From contig NZ_BCXG01000014.1 in NCBI RefSeq assembly GCF_001894985.1, positions 62,001-126,000 on the forward strand: DNA of 64,000 nt, written 5' to 3'. The notes beneath the pieces are model-generated. The model had not been told where the DNA came from and did no database searches. It was given only the letters and a program-made list of their open reading frames with translations. Below, one piece after another: positions 37,930-47,227 of the stretch. Origin of the DNA: Rhodococcus tukisamuensis NBRC 100609 (GTDB taxonomy: Bacteria > Actinomycetota > Actinomycetes > Mycobacteriales > Mycobacteriaceae). The translations under genes and the position numbers were made by a program. Position 1 is the stretch's first letter. Each line of letters begins with the position of its first letter.

Positions 37930-38040
37930 CTACGCCCAGCCGCCGCCCCGCAGCTCACTGGTGGTGGTCACCAGCCCGCGGCCGCGGTCGTCGAGCTCGA
38001 TCACCTCGCTGACCGTCAGGTCCTCGGCGTACCGGGTCAC
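37930..38040 (-). pseudogene. MaoC-like dehydratase remnant coupled to the acyl-CoA dehydrogenase
   Basis: A 36-codon frame whose GTG overlaps the stop of the acyl-CoA dehydrogenase (GTGA). It reads VTRYAEDLTVSEVIELDD and then RGRGLVTTTSEL. The first part resembles the opening of MaoC-like hotdog hydratases; the second resembles their late strand (GRGLVTT-x-x-EL). About 100 central residues would be missing, consistent with an internal deletion that left both ends in frame. It may still be translated, but cannot be an active enzyme. Confidence 0.45.
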
Positions 38041-39185
38041 AGCGACCGCGCGATGATCGACTTCATCACCTCGTTGGCGCCGGCGTAGATCCGCTGCACG
38101 CGGGCGTCCTGGTACATCCGCGCGATCAGGTACTCGCGCATGTAGCCGTAGCCGCCGTGCAGCTGGACGCAGCGGTCGATCACCTCGCACTGCTTGTCGG
38201 TGAGCCAGTACTTGACCATCGCCGCCTCGGACGGGTCGAGCTCGCCGGCCAGGTGCGACTGGACGCAGTGGTCCAGGAACACCTCGCAGGTGCGGGCGAT
38301 GGTCTGGCACTCGGCCAGCTCGAACGCGGTGTTCTGCAGCTCGAAGAGGCTCTGCCCGAACGCCTGCCGCGACTTGGTGTAGGCGACGGTCTCCTCGACC
38401 GCACGCTTCATGGCGCCGGCGGCCTGCGCGCCGATGATCAGCCGTTCCTGCACCAGCTGCGCCATCAGCTGCCCGAAGCCCTGGCCCTCGGCGTCGCCGA
38501 GCAGGTTCGAGGCGGGCACCCGGACGTCGGTGAACGACAGCTCGGAGGTGTCGGCGCCCTGTTGGCCCACCTTGTCCAGCACCCGCCCCACCACGAACCC
38601 AGGGCAGTCCCGCAGGTCGACGATCAGCAGGGACACGCCCTTGGCGCCGGCCTTCGGATCGGTCTTGACGGCGAGCACGATCATGTCGGCGGACGAGCCG
38701 TTGGTGATGAAGGTCTTGGACCCGTTGACGATGTAGTCGTCGCCGTCACGGAGGGCGGTGGTCTTGATCGCCTTGAGGTCGGAGCCGGCGCCGGGCTCGG
38801 TCATGCCGATGGCGCCGAGGATCTCGCCGGTCGCCATCCCCGGCAGCCACGCCCGCTTCTGCTCCTCCGAGCCGTACTCGGCGATGTAGTGCGCGACGAT
38901 GCCGCTGTGCACCGAGACGCCGAAGGCGAGGTCGCCGGCGTAGCCCTGGGCCTCGAAGACGGCGAGGTCGTGGGCGAAGGTGCCGCCCCCGCCGCCGTAC
39001 TCCTCCGGGATCGAGCAGAGCAGCAGGCCGAGCTCACCGGCCGTGCGCCACACGTCGCGGTCGATGCGGTGCTGGGCGTCCCACTTCTCGTTGTGCGCGA
39101 CCACCTCACGCTCGAAGAACCCGAGCGCGAGCTCGGACAGGGCACGGACCTCGTCGTCGTGCCAGGTGGGGACGTACTTCTTCAT
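38037..39185 (-). CDS. Acyl-CoA dehydrogenase
   Basis: A 382-residue flavoenzyme of the acyl-CoA dehydrogenase family. FAD-binding segments are GAIGMTEPGAGSDL (about 124-137) and FITNGSSADMIVL (about 158-170); the signature QLHGGYGYMREYLI is near the C-terminus, and catalytic Glu is in YAGANEVMKSI. It introduces a double bond in acyl-CoA in the cytoplasm and hands electrons to ETF. GAGAAGG lies upstream of the ATG. The small MaoC-like frame that follows suggests it was once paired with a hydratase. Confidence 0.92.
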   Translation of the reverse strand: MKKYVPTWHDDEVRALSELALGFFEREVVAHNEKWDAQHRIDRDVWRTAGELGLLLCSIPEEYGGGGGTFAHDLAVFEAQGYAGDLAFGVSVHSGIVAHYIAEYGSEEQKRAWLPGMATGEILGAIGMTEPGAGSDLKAIKTTALRDGDDYIVNGSKTFITNGSSADMIVLAVKTDPKAGAKGVSLLIVDLRDCPGFVVGRVLDKVGQQGADTSELSFTDVRVPASNLLGDAEGQGFGQLMAQLVQERLIIGAQAAGAMKRAVEETVAYTKSRQAFGQSLFELQNTAFELAECQTIARTCEVFLDHCVQSHLAGELDPSEAAMVKYWLTDKQCEVIDRCVQLHGGYGYMREYLIARMYQDARVQRIYAGANEVMKSIIARSL

Positions 39186-39354: not shown

Positions 39355-40302
39355 TCAGACGGTCGCGGCTGCCCTGCCGGCCTGCACCGCCTCGCCGATC
39401 CACGGCACCACCGCGGACCGCACATCGACGGTGCGCGGCAGCAGACCGTTGGCGGCCAACAGGTTCGCGGTGTGCTGCTGCTCGTCGAGGAACGACTCGC
39501 TCACCGGGTCGACGCCCCACGGGCGACCGCGCAGTGCCCCCTCCCAGGTGTCCAGGTCGGCCTGCCCGCCGCGGGCGACGGCGTCGTCGACGAAGTACCG
39601 GGCCGCCTCGCGGGGGTTCGCCTCGATCCAGGCGTCGGACTCCTGCAGCGCCTCGACGACGGCCCCGAGCGCCTCGCGGTTGTGCTCCGCGAAGTCGCGG
39701 CTGGTGAACCACAGCGACTGGTGACCGAACAGCGACTCCGTGTCGACCAGGGTGCGCACGTCGTGGGCGTTCTCGACGGCGGCCAGGCCCGGGTAGGCGC
39801 CGACCCAGGCGTCCAGGTCGCCGGCGACCAGCGCGGCCCCGCCCTCGAGCACACCGGTGTCGACGGGCTCGACGTCCGCCCACGTCAGCCCCACCCTGTC
39901 CAGGGCGAGCAGCAGCAGGCTGGTCTGCCAGGACCCGTGCGCGATGCCGACGCGCCGCCCCTTCAGGTCCGCGACCGTCTCGATGCCGGAACCGGCGAGG
40001 GTGACCAGGCGGCCGTTCTCGATCCGCGGCCCGGAGATCCCGATGTAGATCACGTCGTGACCCTTGGCGAGCGCGGTGAGCGGCGGGGTGAAGCCGGTGC
40101 CGATGACGTCGTAGCCGCCCTCGGCGAACAGCCAGTCCGAGTGCAGGCTCGGCAGCGCGGTCCTGACGTCCACCGGCGCGGGCTCCGGAAGGGCGCGCAG
40201 GTCAACCCATTCCACGTCGGGTAGGGCGCGCTCGAGGATCCCGCGGTGCCGCAGGACGAACAGGGAGTTGTTGTGCGGGAAGTAGCCGACGCGAACGGTC
40301 AT
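39355..40302 (-). CDS. Binding-protein-fold protein of the organosulfur locus, no signal peptide
   Basis: A 315-residue SsuA/NMT1-like protein: TVRVGYFPHNNSLFVLRHRGI (about 2-22, cut here), then GYDVIGTGFTPPLTALAKGHDVIYIG, LKGRRVGIAHGSWQTSLLLLAL and AYPGLAAVENAHDVRTLVD. The fold is that of sulfonate or taurine binding proteins, yet the chain starts directly with the first strand: there is no signal peptide, lipobox or any cysteine. It may be a cytoplasmic binding or enzyme derivative, as is the DszB-like protein upstream. It is the last gene of the locus, 99 bp after the aldolase and behind a strong hairpin, so it may be expressed at a lower level. Confidence 0.8.
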   Translation of the reverse strand: MTVRVGYFPHNNSLFVLRHRGILERALPDVEWVDLRALPEPAPVDVRTALPSLHSDWLFAEGGYDVIGTGFTPPLTALAKGHDVIYIGISGPRIENGRLVTLAGSGIETVADLKGRRVGIAHGSWQTSLLLLALDRVGLTWADVEPVDTGVLEGGAALVAGDLDAWVGAYPGLAAVENAHDVRTLVDTESLFGHQSLWFTSRDFAEHNREALGAVVEALQESDAWIEANPREAARYFVDDAVARGGQADLDTWEGALRGRPWGVDPVSESFLDEQQHTANLLAANGLLPRTVDVRSAVVPWIGEAVQAGRAAATV

Positions 40303-40401: not shown

Positions 40402-41109
40402 CTAGACGAGCCCCCGCCTGCGCGCCTCGTCGACGAGTCCGCTGCGGGACCACTGCGCGACGAGGTTGGTCTTGTCGAATTCGACGGTGCCGCCGACGGA
40501 CTCGCCGATGGCCTGGTACTGGGCACCCTCCTCCAGCAGCACCACGAACTTCGCGAGCTCGAGCAGCCCGGCGCGGCCGATGACGTTGACGCCCCCGTTG
40601 GCCTCGAAGATCGCGACCAGGTCGGGGTCGCGGACCAACTGCTCGAGGATGAACTCGCCCGCGCCGACGCTGCGGTCGATGTGCGGCGGGATCTCGCGGG
40701 ACAGGGTCAGCCGCTGCGAGGCCGCGTACCGGATCGGCAGGCTCTTGTGGGTCTGGGCGAAACCGCCGAGCCACGGGGTGTGCACGTGCACGACGGAGGT
40801 GATCTCCGGGTGCTCGCGGAACACCTTGGCGTAGCCGGTGACGAAGCCGGCGGAGCCACGACCGGAGAGCACCTCGCCGTCGAAGGTGGCGATCACCGGC
40901 GTGACGGTGCGGTCGTCGGCCCAGGGGCCGGGCTCGTTGAGGGCGACGGCGATCTCCTCGCCGGGCACCCGCTCGACGAAGTTCACGGTGCCGTTGGCGG
41001 AGACGGTGCCGGTCTCGCGGAAGACGCGGAACGCCTTCTCCGCGTCGCGGGTGGCGCTCGCCGCGAAGTCCGCGACGGTCTCGGAGATGCGGGATTCGGT
41101 GGTGGTCAT
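40402..41109 (-). CDS. Class II aldolase/adducin-family protein
   Basis: A 235-residue protein with the class II aldolase fold: GTVSANGTVNFVERVPG (about 33-49), the zinc ligands in VVHVHTPWLGGFAQTHK (about 105-121) with a third His in the ring segment EIPPHIDRSV, and NGGVNVIGRAG. Family members do retro-aldol cleavage, dehydration or decarboxylation with a divalent metal. It starts eight bases after the SsuD-like gene and so is in the operon. In this setting it may process the carbon skeleton left after sulfur removal. The usual catalytic Glu near the N-terminal third is not certain. Confidence 0.82.
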   Translation of the reverse strand: MTTTESRISETVADFAASATRDAEKAFRVFRETGTVSANGTVNFVERVPGEEIAVALNEPGPWADDRTVTPVIATFDGEVLSGRGSAGFVTGYAKVFREHPEITSVVHVHTPWLGGFAQTHKSLPIRYAASQRLTLSREIPPHIDRSVGAGEFILEQLVRDPDLVAIFEANGGVNVIGRAGLLELAKFVVLLEEGAQYQAIGESVGGTVEFDKTNLVAQWSRSGLVDEARRRGLV

Positions 41110-41117
41110 GTTTTCTC

Positions 41118-42305
41118 CTAGCGGGTGATGAGTCGTGTGTGGTTGGGGTGGTCCTGATCGCCGGAAGGGCGCACGGGCGGCGCCGTCGCCTGGAGCAGCG
41201 GGAGGACCTCCTCGCCGACGCGGTAGGCCTCCTCGAGGTGTGGGTTGCCGGCGAGGATGAACGCGTCCACGCCGAGCTCGCGCAGTTCGTCGAGGCGCTG
41301 CGCGACCTGCTCGTAGCTGCCGACCAGTCCGAACGCGGGTCCCCCGCGGATCAGGCTGAACCCGCACCACACGTTCGGCTGGACCTCGAGATCTCGGTAG
41401 CCGGTGATGTTCTCGGGCACCCAGCCCTTGATGCGGGCGGCACCGACCGAGTCGCCCTGCGCGGCCCTGTTCGCCGCGTCGCGGTCGACGAAGGCCCAGC
41501 CCTTCTCGATCTCCGCCCAGGCCGCCTCCTCCGTGTGCCGGGCGACGACGTCGATGCGGACCGCGAACTTCGGTGTCCGCCCGAGCTTCTCGGCGTGGGT
41601 GCGGACCCCGTCGAACTTGGCGCGCAGATCCGCGAACGGCTCGAGCCAGGACAGGTAGTAGTCCGAGTGCCGCCCGGCCGCACCCACGGCCGCGGCCGAC
41701 GACCCGGAGAAGTACACCTCCGGGAACGGCTGACCGGCCAGGCCTGGGGGCAGCGCGGCGCCGTCGGTGGCGTAGAACCGGCCCGCGTGCTGGTACGGGT
41801 CGCCGTCCCAGACGCCGCGCAGCACGTCGAGGAACTCGCTGGTGCGGGCGTACCGGTCGTCGTGGTCGACCTTGTCGCCCCACCACAGCTGCGCCGGTCC
41901 CCCGCCGCCGCTGATGATGTTGTAGACCAGCCGGCCGCCGGTGGCCCGCTGCAGGCTCGCCGACATCCGCGCCGCCTGGACGGGATGCAGGAATCCCGGC
42001 TGGAAGGCGACCATGAACTTGTAGGTGGTGGTCTCGCGGGCCAGCGCCGACGCCACCGCCCACGGGTCCTCGGTGACCGGGAACGACGGCAGCAGCCCGC
42101 CGAGGAACCCCGCCGACTCGGACGCCTTGGCCACGGCCGCGATGTGGTCGATGTACCCGTAGCCGTCCAGTTCGCCGCCGCGGATGGCGGGCGCGATGTT
42201 GCCCGGGCCGTATCCGTTCGCATGACCGCGGTTGTAGCGCCGCGGGGTGCGCAGCGACGCGTGGTCGCCTTCCATGCCGATCCGCCAGTAGAAGTCGGTG
42301 CTCAT
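41118..42305 (-). CDS. SsuD-like FMNH2-dependent monooxygenase (LLM class), copy 1
   Basis: A 395-residue bacterial luciferase-like monooxygenase. The SsuD-type C-terminus DAFILAGNPHLEEAYRVGEEVLPLL is present (in two pieces: FILAGNPHLEEAYR, VGEEVLPLL), as are FMVAFQPGFLHPVQAARMSA, GRLVYNIISGGG and YFSGSSAAAV. SsuD enzymes use reduced FMN to split the C-S bond of sulfonates, releasing sulfite and an aldehyde. It overlaps the second copy by four bases. No flavin reductase (SsuE) gene is in the locus, so reduced flavin must come from elsewhere. Confidence 0.88.
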   Translation of the reverse strand: MSTDFYWRIGMEGDHASLRTPRRYNRGHANGYGPGNIAPAIRGGELDGYGYIDHIAAVAKASESAGFLGGLLPSFPVTEDPWAVASALARETTTYKFMVAFQPGFLHPVQAARMSASLQRATGGRLVYNIISGGGGPAQLWWGDKVDHDDRYARTSEFLDVLRGVWDGDPYQHAGRFYATDGAALPPGLAGQPFPEVYFSGSSAAAVGAAGRHSDYYLSWLEPFADLRAKFDGVRTHAEKLGRTPKFAVRIDVVARHTEEAAWAEIEKGWAFVDRDAANRAAQGDSVGAARIKGWVPENITGYRDLEVQPNVWCGFSLIRGGPAFGLVGSYEQVAQRLDELRELGVDAFILAGNPHLEEAYRVGEEVLPLLQATAPPVRPSGDQDHPNHTRLITR

Positions 42306-43402
42306 GCGGTGGCCTCCTGTCCTGCGATGGTGCGTCCGGCCGGGTCCACCAGGTGCAGCAGGTGCTCGCCGGCGCGGTGCAGTTCCTCGATGTGCGGGCG
42401 CCCGGTGAGGACGAAGCTGTCGATTCCGGCGTCGACGTAGGCCGAGAGCTGTTGCGCCACCTGCTCGTAGCTGCCGACCAGTCCGATCGGCTCGTCGTAG
42501 CCCAGCTCGGTGAACCCGGCCCAGCGACCGCCGCCGAGGTCGAGTTCGTGGGCGACGGGGCTGTCCGGATGGACCTCGCGCCACTGCCGCTCGACCCGGG
42601 CCCACGCCTCGTCCTCGCTCTCGCGGGCGATGATCGGCAGCTCCAGCCCGGCGCGCACCGTGCGTCCCTGCGCCGAGGCCCGCTCGGTCAGCGCGGCGAC
42701 CAGGTCGCCGACACCGTCGACGGTCTCGGTGAACAGGTGCACGTCGCCGTGACTCGCCGACAGGTCCAGCGCCTCGTCCGAGGAACCGGACAGGTACACC
42801 GTGGGGAACGGCAGCCCGGACAGGATTCCGCGGAAGCCACCGTCGACGACGTCGAAGTACTCGCCGGTGAAGTGGAAGTCGGTGCCCTTGAATCCGGCAC
42901 CGGCGAGCGGGGTCTCGTTCCACACCCCGCGGGCCACGGCGAGGAACTCCGCGGCCCGGGCGTACCGGTCGGCGCCGGCGACCCGGTCGCCCCTGGCCCG
43001 GGCGTCCGCCTCGTCGGTCTCCACCTGGATCCGCCAGGCCAGCCGGCCGGCCGACAGTCGCTGCAGGGTCGCGGACACCTTGGCCGCGTACACCGGGCTG
43101 CCGAACGCCGGCTGGAACTCGACGACCACCCGGGCGTGCCGGGTGTCGCGCAGGGCCCCGCCGCCGACGATCCACGACTCCTCCCCCAGCGGGTCGTAGG
43201 GCGCGAGCACCCCGTCGAGGCCGGAGAGCTCCGCGGCCAGCACGATCTGGGCGAGGTCGTCGAAGGGCCCGAAGTTGCCGGGGCGCAGGTCCGTTGCCAC
43301 CGTGGGCACCCGCGGTCCGCCGAAGCCGCCGCGGTTGCGCGTGCCGGGCGTCGCGTGTCGGCCGTCGCCGCGGGAGGGCAGTTGCCAGAGGAGCTCGGTC
43401 AT
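42302..43402 (-). CDS. SsuD-like FMNH2-dependent monooxygenase (LLM class), copy 2
   Basis: A 366-residue paralogue of copy 1. Shared blocks are VVVEFQPAFGSPVYAAKVSA, GRLAWRIQVETDE, VYLSGSSDEAL, LVGSYEQVAQQL and the ending SFVLTGRPHIEELHRAGEHLL. An N-terminal Gly/Arg/Pro-rich extension (about 10-40) is peculiar to this copy. Two divergent SsuD-like enzymes in one operon suggest two substrates or two consecutive oxygenations (for example sulfone to sulfinate to sulfite). It overlaps the DszB-like gene by four bases. Confidence 0.86.
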   Translation of the reverse strand: MTELLWQLPSRGDGRHATPGTRNRGGFGGPRVPTVATDLRPGNFGPFDDLAQIVLAAELSGLDGVLAPYDPLGEESWIVGGGALRDTRHARVVVEFQPAFGSPVYAAKVSATLQRLSAGRLAWRIQVETDEADARARGDRVAGADRYARAAEFLAVARGVWNETPLAGAGFKGTDFHFTGEYFDVVDGGFRGILSGLPFPTVYLSGSSDEALDLSASHGDVHLFTETVDGVGDLVAALTERASAQGRTVRAGLELPIIARESEDEAWARVERQWREVHPDSPVAHELDLGGGRWAGFTELGYDEPIGLVGSYEQVAQQLSAYVDAGIDSFVLTGRPHIEELHRAGEHLLHLVDPAGRTIAGQEATA

Positions 43403-44445
43403 GACGCCGCCCTCCCCGAGGCCAGCAGTTCGCGGGCACGCTCGAGCGGCTCGCGGGCCACCCAGGACTCGAGGTCGAAGTCCGCGGCCAGGAAGCCGTG
43501 CGTGTAGAGGAACTGCTTCTGGATGTCGATCAGCTCGACCCGCTCGTCGGACAGCGACGGGTGCAGGTCCAGGTGGAAGCCGTCCTTGTAGGCCGCCGCG
43601 ACTCCCTCGGGGCCGGAGAGGGTTTCGCGGGCGAGGACCTCACGGACCCGGTCGAGGTTGTCGGCCGCCCAGTCCGCGGCGCGCAGGCTCTGCGCCAGGA
43701 ACCCCACCACCAGCTCGGGCCGGGACTCGAGCAGGTCCGCGTGCACGGTGATCGGCCGCGGAGTGCCGTTGTTCACGCGCCGCCGCTTCGCGTCGGTGGC
43801 GTCCAGGTCCACCGCGACCCGCAGACCGTGCTCGCGGGCCACCTCCTGCGCACGGGCACCCTTGACGTAGATCGCGTCCACGTCGCCACGCAGCAGCTCG
43901 TCGACGCCCCAGGTGGTGGTGCGCCGACTGCCGCGAACAGCACTGCGCACCTGTGGGTTCCGTTCGACGTCGACCTCGACGGCGGTCACGTCGGCCAGCG
44001 TCAGGCCGCCGAGGCGCAGCGCGTTGGCGAAGCCGTGCAGGGCCATGGCCCGGGGGAAGCTCCGTGCCTGGTCCTGGGCCCAGGCCGGGACACCGATCCG
44101 CAGCCCGGCCAGGTCGGACGGCCCCGCGACCGCGGACTCGGGGCCGACGACGACGGCCTGCGACTCGTCGATCCAGGTGAGGCCGACCAGCCGGGTGGAC
44201 GAGCCCTGGGCGCGGGCGGCGATCGCGGGGACGTTGCCGCCCTCGCGGACCAGCCCGAGCAGCTGGTGGTCGAAGTGACGGACGGCCAGCTCGGGGCCGG
44301 CCTCCTGCAGCACGCCCAGGCTCACTCCCGCGTCGGCGGCGGCGTCGGCGAGCCAGCCGAGGCTGTGCGCAAGGCCGCTCGCGGTGGGCACGGGGCAGCG
44401 GGTGTACCAGAGGGTGTCGAGGGAGGTGGCGGCTACTGCGGTCAT
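43399..44445 (-). CDS. DszB-like aryl-sulfinate desulfinase homologue
   Basis: A 348-residue protein with binding-protein fold, no signal peptide and no lipobox. It carries the local signatures of DszB, the 2-(2'-hydroxyphenyl)benzenesulfinate desulfinase: WYTRCPVPTAS (DszB has YSNCPVPNA), VRHFDH (VHFTYD), REGGNVPAIA (RFGGEIPPLL) and KQFLYTHGFL (QQFLLTNNLL). DszB's catalytic Cys27, His60 and Arg70 have counterparts Cys17, His57 and Arg67; the His-Arg spacing of ten is identical. It should cleave a sulfinate to sulfite. Automatic annotation would probably call it a transport binding protein. ATG at 44443-44445 is preferred over GTG at 44448 because AAGGAG stands six bases ahead. Confidence 0.8.
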   Translation of the reverse strand: MTAVAATSLDTLWYTRCPVPTASGLAHSLGWLADAAADAGVSLGVLQEAGPELAVRHFDHQLLGLVREGGNVPAIAARAQGSSTRLVGLTWIDESQAVVVGPESAVAGPSDLAGLRIGVPAWAQDQARSFPRAMALHGFANALRLGGLTLADVTAVEVDVERNPQVRSAVRGSRRTTTWGVDELLRGDVDAIYVKGARAQEVAREHGLRVAVDLDATDAKRRRVNNGTPRPITVHADLLESRPELVVGFLAQSLRAADWAADNLDRVREVLARETLSGPEGVAAAYKDGFHLDLHPSLSDERVELIDIQKQFLYTHGFLAADFDLESWVAREPLERARELLASGRAAS

Positions 44446-44455
44446 CACGTGCTCC

Positions 44456-45253
44456 TTAGGTGGTGTCGTCGGAAGCGGCGCGGCCGACTCCGAGTTCGGC
44501 GAGAAACGCTGCGCGGTAACGCAGGGACTCGGGATCGGTGCGGTCGCGGGGGCGGGCCAGGTCGATGTCCACGTCGACGGCGAACCGGCCCTCGTTGAGG
44601 ATCAGCACCCGGTCGGCCAGCCGCACGGCCTCGTCGACGTCGTGGGTGACCAGCAGCACCGCGGGACGGTGCCGGGCCACCAGGTCGCCCACCAGGTCCT
44701 GCATCTGCAGCCGGGTCAGGGCGTCGAGCGCGGCGAACGGCTCGTCGAGCAGCAGCAGTTCCGGCTCCCGGACCAGCGCCCTGGCGAGTGCGACCCGCTG
44801 GGCCTCGCCGCCGGACAGGGTGGCCGGCCACTGCCTGGCCTTGGTCTCGAGGTTCACCTCTGCCAGTGCCCGCACCGCGCGGGCCCGGTTCTCGGCGGTC
44901 CGCCGCTGGCCGACGGTGACGTTGGCCAGCACCCGCTTGGACGGGATCAGCCGCGGCTCCTGGTAGACGGTGGTGCGCTGCCCGGGGACCAGGATCTGCC
45001 CGGCGTCGGGCCTTTCGAGCCCGGTGAGCAGCCGCAGCAGGGTGGTCTTGCCGGTGCCGCTGGGCCCGAGCAGCACCACGAACTCCCCGCGGTGGATCTC
45101 CAGGTCGACGCCGTCGAGGACGGTCTTGTCGCCGAAGGCTTTGCGGACCCCGCGCAGGGAGACGGCGACGGGCTCGCCGGCCCGGCGGGCGCTGGCCGCG
45201 GTCGCGGTGCGCTCGCGGATCGCCAACGGCGGCAAGGGCGTGTCGGTGCTCAT
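44456..45253 (-). CDS. ssuB: SsuB-like ABC transporter ATPase (sulfonate import)
   Basis: A 265-residue ATPase. Walker A is LLGPSGTGKTTLL (about 56-68), the Q-loop has TTVYQEPRLIPSKRV, the signature is LSGGEAQRVALARAL (about 143-157), Walker B LLLLDEPFAALD, and the switch His is in LLVTHDVDEAV. The sequence fits the nitrate/sulfonate/taurine importer class. Its ATG overlaps the permease stop (ATGA). It powers import by the SsuC and SsuA homologues next to it. Confidence 0.9.
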   Translation of the reverse strand: MSTDTPLPPLAIRERTATAASARRAGEPVAVSLRGVRKAFGDKTVLDGVDLEIHRGEFVVLLGPSGTGKTTLLRLLTGLERPDAGQILVPGQRTTVYQEPRLIPSKRVLANVTVGQRRTAENRARAVRALAEVNLETKARQWPATLSGGEAQRVALARALVREPELLLLDEPFAALDALTRLQMQDLVGDLVARHRPAVLLVTHDVDEAVRLADRVLILNEGRFAVDVDIDLARPRDRTDPESLRYRAAFLAELGVGRAASDDTT

Positions 45254-46128
45254 CGGACAGCCACCTGACCGCGCCACGGCATTGCGAACTTCTCGATCAC
45301 CCGGACGACGGCGTCGAAGACCAGGCCGAGGACCGCGTAGAGCACCACGCACAGCACCATGTAGTCGGTGCGGTTGTACTCCTGCGCCAACGTCACCAGG
45401 TAACCGATGCCCTCGCGGGTGCCGACCTGCTCGGCGGCGATGAGTCCGGTGATGGAGATCGACAGGCAGATCCGCAGCGCCATCAGCACTCCCGGCAACG
45501 CGGCCGGCAGGATCGCCCCGACCACCAGCCGCCAGCCGCGCAGCCCGAAACTCTGTGCGGCCTCGACCATCTTGCGGTCCACGTTGCGGACCCCTAGGTA
45601 GGTGTAGGCGTACATCGGTCCGACGGTGGCGACCGCGATGAGCAGCACCTTGAAGGTCTCGTCGATGCCGAACCAGGCGATGAACAGCGGCACCAGCGCC
45701 AGGAACGGGATGGCCCTGTTGATCTGCATAGTGGAGTCGACGATTTCCTCACCGAGGCTGGACAGCCCGGCCAGCACACCGAGCACCAGCCCGATCACCA
45801 CGCCGAACAGCACACCGACAGCGGCGCGCTTTAACGACGCGATCGAGAAGTCCACCAGCTGCCCGGTCTGGTACAGCTCGGCGAAGGCGGACCACACCTT
45901 CGGCGGTCCGGCCAGGATCTCCTCCGGCACGGCGCCGGTCGCCGAGCCGATCCACCAGACGGCGACGATCAGCGCCGGGACCAGGAAACGCAGCGGGATC
46001 GACACCCAGCGCGGCCGGCTGCGACCGGCCCGGTAGCGCGGCTCCTCCAGCTCGAGCTGCCCGGTGGCGGCGCCGCGACCCGCTGCCATGGTCCCGCCCG
46101 GCGCACGGGGCGCGGTCAGGGTGGCCAT
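45250..46128 (-). CDS. ssuC: SsuC-like ABC transporter permease (sulfonate import)
   Basis: A 292-residue permease with about six transmembrane helices after a 45-residue cytoplasmic tail. The EAA coupling loop is VEAAQSFGLRGWRLVVGAILPAALPGVLMAL (in pieces around residues 188-218), which docks on the ATPase. RAIPFLALVPLFIAWFGI is typical of SsuC/TauC. It starts one base after the binding-protein gene. Confidence 0.9.
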   Translation of the reverse strand: MATLTAPRAPGGTMAAGRGAATGQLELEEPRYRAGRSRPRWVSIPLRFLVPALIVAVWWIGSATGAVPEEILAGPPKVWSAFAELYQTGQLVDFSIASLKRAAVGVLFGVVIGLVLGVLAGLSSLGEEIVDSTMQINRAIPFLALVPLFIAWFGIDETFKVLLIAVATVGPMYAYTYLGVRNVDRKMVEAAQSFGLRGWRLVVGAILPAALPGVLMALRICLSISITGLIAAEQVGTREGIGYLVTLAQEYNRTDYMVLCVVLYAVLGLVFDAVVRVIEKFAMPWRGQVAVR

Positions 46129-46129
46129 G

Positions 46130-47227
46130 TCAGTTCCCCTTGGTGGGCGCGGACTGGTTCTGCGCAGACGGGTCCGGCGTGGTCGGCTTCTGCGCGGACC
46201 CGGCGAGCTTGTCCTGCAACGGGTAGAAGACGTCGCCGGCGGTGAGCGCGCGGGTGGTCACCCCGTTCTGGAAGAACAGGTCCGCGACCTCCTGCAGGTC
46301 CGCGGCGTCGTCCGCGGTCGGGTAGTGCGGCACCGATGCCCGGCGCCCGAGGTCGACCGCCCGGGCCAGCCGGTCACCGGACAGCGCCCGCGGGCCGGCC
46401 TTCTCGAAGACGTTCTGGTAGTCCTCGGGGTTGCTCCGCTGTCCCTCGGTGAGGGCCTGCAGCGTCTCGAGGTACTTCGACGCGACGTCGGGGCGCTGGT
46501 CGAGCACCGCGGTGCGGAACGCGACGATGGTGTTGTCCCTGGAGTCGATGGAAGCCTCGGTGGCGATCTCGACGACGCCGTCGCGGGCCTTCGCCTCCTG
46601 GTAGGGGTCGTTGAACGACGCCCACGCGTCGACCTGGCCGGTGGAGAACGCCGACGCCGCGTCCGACGGCTGCAGCGGCACCCGCTCGACCTGGTCGAAC
46701 GGGACGTTGGCCCGGCGCAACGCCTTCAGGGTGATGTACTCGCCCTTGCCCGCCGGGTTGACCGCGATGCGCTTGCCGACGAGGTCCTTGACCTCCTTCA
46801 CCCCCGAACCCGGGGAGGCGATGATGCCGCTCTGGTCCTGGTCGACCGGGTCGGCCACCGCGATGATCCGCACGGCCACGTCCTTGGAGAGCGCGCCGAC
46901 CACCGGGCTGTAGGCGCCGCCGGAGACGTCGAGCTGGCCGGCGTTGAACAGCTTGAGGTTGGCGCTGAACGCGGGCGGCGCCTTGACCCACTCGACCTTG
47001 GCGCCGAGCGGGGCCAGCGCCTTGTCGAAGGTGCCGTCGCGCTTGCCGACCGCGAGCGGGCCGGCGTTGCCGGGGTCGGTGACCTTGAGGACGAAGGTCG
47101 GCTCGGCGCCGGACGTGGCCGTCGAGGCGGCGTCGTCACCCCCCGAACCGCAGGCGGCAACCAGCGCGACGACGGGGAGGATCGCGAGCGCGGCGCGCGC
47201 TCGGGGCAGTCGGCGGGTGCGGGACAT
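46130..47227 (-). CDS. ssuA: SsuA-like substrate-binding lipoprotein
   Basis: A 365-residue lipoprotein: basic N-terminus, hydrophobic helix, lipobox LVAACGSG with Cys26. The mature domain has the SsuA pattern FSANLKLFNAGQLDVSGGAYSPVVGAL, VKEVKDLVGKRIAVNPAGKGEYI and PLQPSDAASAFSTGQVDAWASF. It ends in a disordered Thr/Pro/Gln tail. It is the first gene of the eight-gene locus and the only true exported binding protein in it. The 181-bp gap upstream is shared with an enoyl-CoA hydratase gene. Confidence 0.9.
   Translation of the reverse strand: MSRTRRLPRARAALAILPVVALVAACGSGGDDAASTATSGAEPTFVLKVTDPGNAGPLAVGKRDGTFDKALAPLGAKVEWVKAPPAFSANLKLFNAGQLDVSGGAYSPVVGALSKDVAVRIIAVADPVDQDQSGIIASPGSGVKEVKDLVGKRIAVNPAGKGEYITLKALRRANVPFDQVERVPLQPSDAASAFSTGQVDAWASFNDPYQEAKARDGVVEIATEASIDSRDNTIVAFRTAVLDQRPDVASKYLETLQALTEGQRSNPEDYQNVFEKAGPRALSGDRLARAVDLGRRASVPHYPTADDAADLQEVADLFFQNGVTTRALTAGDVFYPLQDKLAGSAQKPTTPDPSAQNQSAPTKGN

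Follow-up and report, generated by a model that had tools for sequence, protein, structure and literature searches.

The 64,000-nucleotide stretch of the Rhodococcus tukisamuensis NBRC 100609 genome analyzed here (the window; contig NZ_BCXG01000014.1, positions 62,001 to 126,000) encodes a DszB-like protein that is very probably a cytosolic, DszB-fold sulfinate desulfinase, related to the enzyme DszB of oil desulfurization and fed by two divergent SsuD-like monooxygenases for sulfur scavenging. Its homology to DszB, its fold and catalytic positions, and the operon and its conservation are documented below. The protein represents a further example of a known actinobacterial operon and not a new kind of enzyme. 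Its gene lies on the minus strand, with an ATG at 44445 and a stop codon at 43399-43401 (348 aa), and takes fourth place in a run of eight genes that share one direction, in the order SBP1, permease, ATPase, DszB-like gene, LLM1, LLM2, class II aldolase-like gene and SBP2. The features of the operon are:

46130..47227, minus strand: SBP1, which opens the operon; SsuA-like binding lipoprotein with a VAAC lipobox, exported
45250..46128, minus strand: SsuC-like ABC permease
44456..45253, minus strand: SsuB-like ABC ATPase
44452..44457, minus strand: AAGGAG ribosome-binding site of the DszB-like gene, 6 nt upstream of the ATG (from the sequence)
43399..44445, minus strand: DszB-like desulfinase candidate, 348 aa; catalytic positions Thr15, Cys17, His57, Arg67 and Gly70
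44395..44397, minus strand: Cys17 codon, equivalent to DszB Cys27 (from the sequence and alignment)
42302..43402, minus strand: LLM1, a divergent SsuD relative of the luciferase-like flavin monooxygenase type; overlaps the DszB-like gene at an ATGA
41118..42305, minus strand: LLM2, SsuD-like flavin monooxygenase; ATGA overlap with LLM1
40402..41109, minus strand: class II aldolase/adducin-like protein
39355..40302, minus strand: SBP2, second SsuA-like protein, with no signal peptide and no Cys

The stop codon of the DszB-like gene overlaps the LLM1 start in the ATGA at 43402-43399. Rfam, promoter and terminator scans of the operon found nothing. A search for an export signal at the N-terminus of the DszB-like protein, which begins MTAVAATSLDTLWYTRCPVPT, likewise found none; signal peptide and lipobox are absent, unlike in SsuA transport proteins. 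The reading frame has no room for an N-terminal extension because the upstream ATPase gene ends at 44456, and the orthologues have consistent starts. The absence of an export signal asserted in the original prediction therefore holds.

A PDB-wide sequence search returned DszB as the sole significant match of the DszB-like protein (E 3.5e-18, residues 9-335), with the next-best match at E 0.26. Cys17, His57, Arg67 and Gly70 align with DszB Cys27, His60, Arg70 and Gly73, and Thr15 aligns with Ser25; these DszB residues have been assigned to catalysis or sulfinate binding (PMC6100217). In a family alignment of 121 members that includes DszB, the Arg and Gly70 positions are invariant (121/121 each), while the Thr/Ser15 position is retained in 120, the His in 118 and the Cys in 115, and this conservation extends across phyla. 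Because DszB is the only significant PDB match and the Cys, His and Arg are kept throughout this alignment, we consider the resemblance to be far from chance. The equivalence of the three residues to their DszB counterparts, first proposed from the letters alone, is thus borne out, as are the identical His-to-Arg spacing (10 in both proteins) and the presence of all four predicted blocks (CPVPTAS, VRHFDH, REGGNVP and KQFLYTHGF). Among profile libraries, Pfam gave a weak NMT1/THI5 match alone, and the score against the NCBIfam SsuA model TIGR01728 was 51.2 bits, below its curated cut-off of 163.5.

Six relatives in the alignment lack the Cys. Each of them adjoins a Cys-bearing copy, and those inspected, some of the six, share the same start point and carry no extra leader. 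Cys-less paralogues with Ser or Gly at this position were observed at L092 335, L096 420, L102 327, L104 87, L098 10582 and L023 2216. A C27S mutant of DszB is inactive, so the Cys-less paralogues may be pseudo-enzymes. A Cys lying outside the cleft, or close relatives that are transport proteins lacking the Cys, would have counted against the original prediction; as far as tested, neither was seen.

The AlphaFold model of the DszB-like protein, built with an alignment of 41 homologues, has a mean pLDDT of 88.7. Its top three structural matches are all DszB chains (E 3e-21, TM 0.76-0.78), followed by the much weaker E. coli SsuA (E 5e-14, TM 0.65), so the structure prediction called for in the original prediction favors a DszB-like fold. 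The catalytic positions align to DszB without gaps and fall mostly inside confident parts of the model, and on the basis of this ungapped alignment the Cys, His and Arg are predicted to converge as they do in DszB. When the family profile was run against 296 Actinomycetota genomes, two matches exceeded 430 bits, one of them in the R. tukisamuensis genome, and the rest scored below 39; members of the family reach 434 bits or more. In a phylogenetic tree, DszB and the DszB-like family group together, apart from the SsuA-like proteins of the operon, with branch support of 100/98; DszB forms a separate deep branch, and given the long branches this split is surer than the exact order. Neither SBP1 nor SBP2, the SsuA-like pair encoded in the operon, has the Cys or the Arg. 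SsuA and the DszB-like protein thus share a general fold and a place in an ssu-type operon, but SsuA is exported and serves transport, whereas the DszB-like protein is signal-less and has DszB-type catalytic residues.

The genes flanking the DszB-like gene are SsuD-like, as originally predicted, and not DszA or DszC: no DszA match was found in the genome, and DszC gave weak matches alone (28%), with no close dszC. LLM2 is the closer of the two monooxygenases to SsuD (E 8e-64) and keeps the equivalents of Arg226 and Arg297, but has Asp at the position of SsuD His228 (in 71 of 77 sequences). LLM1 is farther from SsuD, with Glu, Pro and Gly at the Arg226, His228 and Arg297 positions, and the residues at these positions vary among LLM1 orthologues. 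We take these three SsuD residues to be functional, and from the substitutions LLM1 and LLM2 may be something other than standard sulfonate-cleaving enzymes; producing a sulfinate is a role that would suit them. SBP2 is predicted to be a cytosolic binding-fold protein. Its orthologues begin directly at the first strand (M-x-x-RVGYFPHNN), and it is 58-79% identical across most of them, often above the value for the exported SBP1. In the class II aldolase-like protein the HxH motif is retained, but an invariant NGG stands where NHG, with the third metal-binding His, would be expected; because of this replacement it may be no ordinary aldolase.

An identical eight-gene order is found in the bds operon of Gordonia terrae C-6 (BdsA is GTC6_01605, KC831580). 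From GTC6_01585 to GTC6_01620 the published order is binding protein, hypothetical protein, bdsC, bdsB, bdsA, ATPase, permease and binding protein, with bdsC annotated as an alkanesulfonate monooxygenase, bdsB as an FMNH2 monooxygenase and bdsA as a desulfinase (PMC3868597). All of these genes were strongly induced on benzothiophene, and an extract of E. coli with bdsABC and DszD, with the three enzymes acting together, converted benzothiophene to o-hydroxystyrene (PMC3868597). The orthology of BdsA to the DszB-like protein, across different genera, rests on gene order and annotation. We found orthologues of the DszB-like protein in five Gordonia genomes; where the Gordonia protein is 66-68% identical, the genome has precisely the bds eight-gene order, and three genomes of this genus whose DszB-like genes are of another kind are without it. 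The peg4799-4806 locus of R. qingshengii IGTS8 also fits the R. tukisamuensis operon: peg4799 and peg4806 are listed as SsuA, peg4801 as SsuB and peg4804 as SsuD, and IGTS8_peg4802, listed as dibenzothiophene desulfurization enzyme B, is enriched in DBT-grown cells (PMC8557817). The function of IGTS8_peg4802 is known from annotation and abundance only, and this strain also has a genuine dsz operon, separate and on a plasmid. The eight-gene operon occurs in R. qingshengii IEGM 1359 as well, with a protein 72% identical to the DszB-like protein.

Since the bds operon and the IGTS8 locus are already published, the original prediction was right in substance but does not describe something new. What stands is that a sulfonate-type operon encodes a protein of DszB fold that is probably a desulfinase; the implied novelty does not, the orthologous operons having already been called desulfinase or DszB in both strains. 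These calls also do not support the expectation that automatic annotation would miss the gene, yet annotated plasmid homologues are mostly labeled "ABC transporter substrate-binding protein". A literature search for DszB-like proteins in connection with sulfinates found no papers.

We infer a reaction, a mechanism (by analogy with DszB) and an order of steps in which an SsuABC-type transporter (SBP1, permease and ATPase) would import an organosulfur compound, which LLM1 and/or LLM2, as FMNH2-dependent enzymes, would oxidize to a sulfinate. The sulfinate group would then be held by Arg67, Gly70 and His57 of the desulfinase, and Cys17 would protonate the carbon of the C-S bond, releasing sulfite for sulfur assimilation. 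A benzothiophene-type sulfinate is a possible substrate, because the G. terrae C-6 operon with the same gene order is reported to act on benzothiophene.

The binding-protein fold and the low scores against the SsuA and NMT1 models would also suit a cytosolic, non-catalytic binding protein that buffers, senses or passes a sulfonate or sulfinate to the monooxygenases, and the operon does contain a second signal-less SsuA-like protein without the Cys, SBP2. We regard such a role as unlikely, given that the DszB-type Cys, His, Arg, Gly and Ser/Thr are conserved across phyla while SBP2 is without both Cys and Arg, that the SsuA model score (51) is well under the cut-off of 163.5, and that DszB is nearest in both sequence and fold. 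A transport binding protein was rejected on the lack of a signal and the conserved catalytic set. If the protein is an enzyme acting through the Cys, it might still perform other chemistry in the same pathway, for example as a sulfinate ester (sultine) hydrolase or another C-S lyase. Pocket residues outside the catalytic set do differ from DszB (Lys195, Arg223 and Arg230), but the residues with which DszB binds and protonates the sulfinate are all kept and the extract of the orthologous operon gives a desulfinated product (PMC3868597), which makes this distinctly improbable.

Barely tenable is an identification as DszB proper, the 2'-hydroxybiphenyl-2-sulfinate desulfinase (EC 3.13.1.3) of dibenzothiophene desulfurization. 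The DszB-like protein shares with DszB its fold and the catalytic Cys, His, Arg, Gly and Ser/Thr, but is about 30% identical to it, compared to 63-99.7% for true DszBs (99.7% in one related genome, L015/L019; 63% in another, L014; 66% on plasmid pMyong1), and these form their own group in the tree while the DszB-like protein is a separate lineage. Trp155 and Phe203, aromatic residues of the hydrophobic DszB pocket, have no counterpart, their positions being deleted or lying in a loop that does not align. The segments around DszB 128-137 and 151-157 are deleted, and NNGTPRP and Lys195 stand in the place of NAYASVW and Trp225 of DszB. The partners also differ, SsuD-like monooxygenases accompanying the DszB-like gene and DszA/DszC accompanying DszB. 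On pocket residues, partner genes and tree, a true DszB was rejected. Because the DszB pocket residues are missing, NNGTPRP takes the place of the DszB segment, and DszA and a close DszC are absent, the desulfinase likely acts on a different sulfinate than DszB. A downstream acyl-CoA dehydrogenase gene (38037-39185) was tried as DszC and rejected, scoring 30 bits against a DszC model cut-off of 850 and more than 300 bits against an ordinary acyl-CoA dehydrogenase-type model.

Relatives of the putative desulfinase number at least 551 in a species-level genome scan. The eight-gene order is kept in Rhodococcus, Nocardia, Gordonia, Williamsia, Tsukamurella and Amycolatopsis, and Streptosporangiales and other Pseudonocardiaceae keep the operon order without the aldolase-like gene. 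The neighbors of relatives in Pseudomonas, Sphingobium and Methylococcaceae are DszC-like or DszA-like monooxygenases, which independently supports a relay from monooxygenase to desulfinase. It is conceivable, though we hold it somewhat more doubtful than not, that DszB is a small specialized branch of a large, mostly mislabeled family of desulfinases that are cytosolic and spread over actinobacteria, rhizobia, Pseudomonas and methylotrophs, and that the R. tukisamuensis lineage, without the aromatic pocket of DszB and its segments close to the active site, takes common small or polar natural sulfinates from SsuD-like or sulfone monooxygenases. If true, this would be a general sulfur-scavenging route beside direct sulfonate cleavage. 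Confirmed activity would mean that a family often annotated as transport binding proteins consists of enzymes that cleave C-S bonds, and would change the genome-based reading of sulfur scavenging by soil bacteria. It would also make available naturally occurring enzymes of DszB fold that are missing some of the segments around the active site, which is useful for biodesulfurization; lid loops in this region of DszB have been blamed for its product inhibition (PMC12168087).

Several further features were observed around relatives of the operon. A putative regulator, IclR-like to judge by its N-terminal sequence, lies between LLM2 and SBP2 at three loci (L071, L073 and L076) and upstream of the operon at two others (L063 and L065); present in or near the operon in several genera, it is a candidate operon regulator. 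In Mycobacterium intracellulare subsp. yongonense, dszA, dszB and dszC are found on plasmid pMyong1 beside IS256 and IS3 elements (L106 437-4118). The cluster around a relative in Variovorax paradoxus (L022 8001-15939) includes genes for a sulfurtransferase, a member of the cysteine dioxygenase family and cystathionine beta-lyase, a hint that the substrates may be sulfinates derived from thiols.
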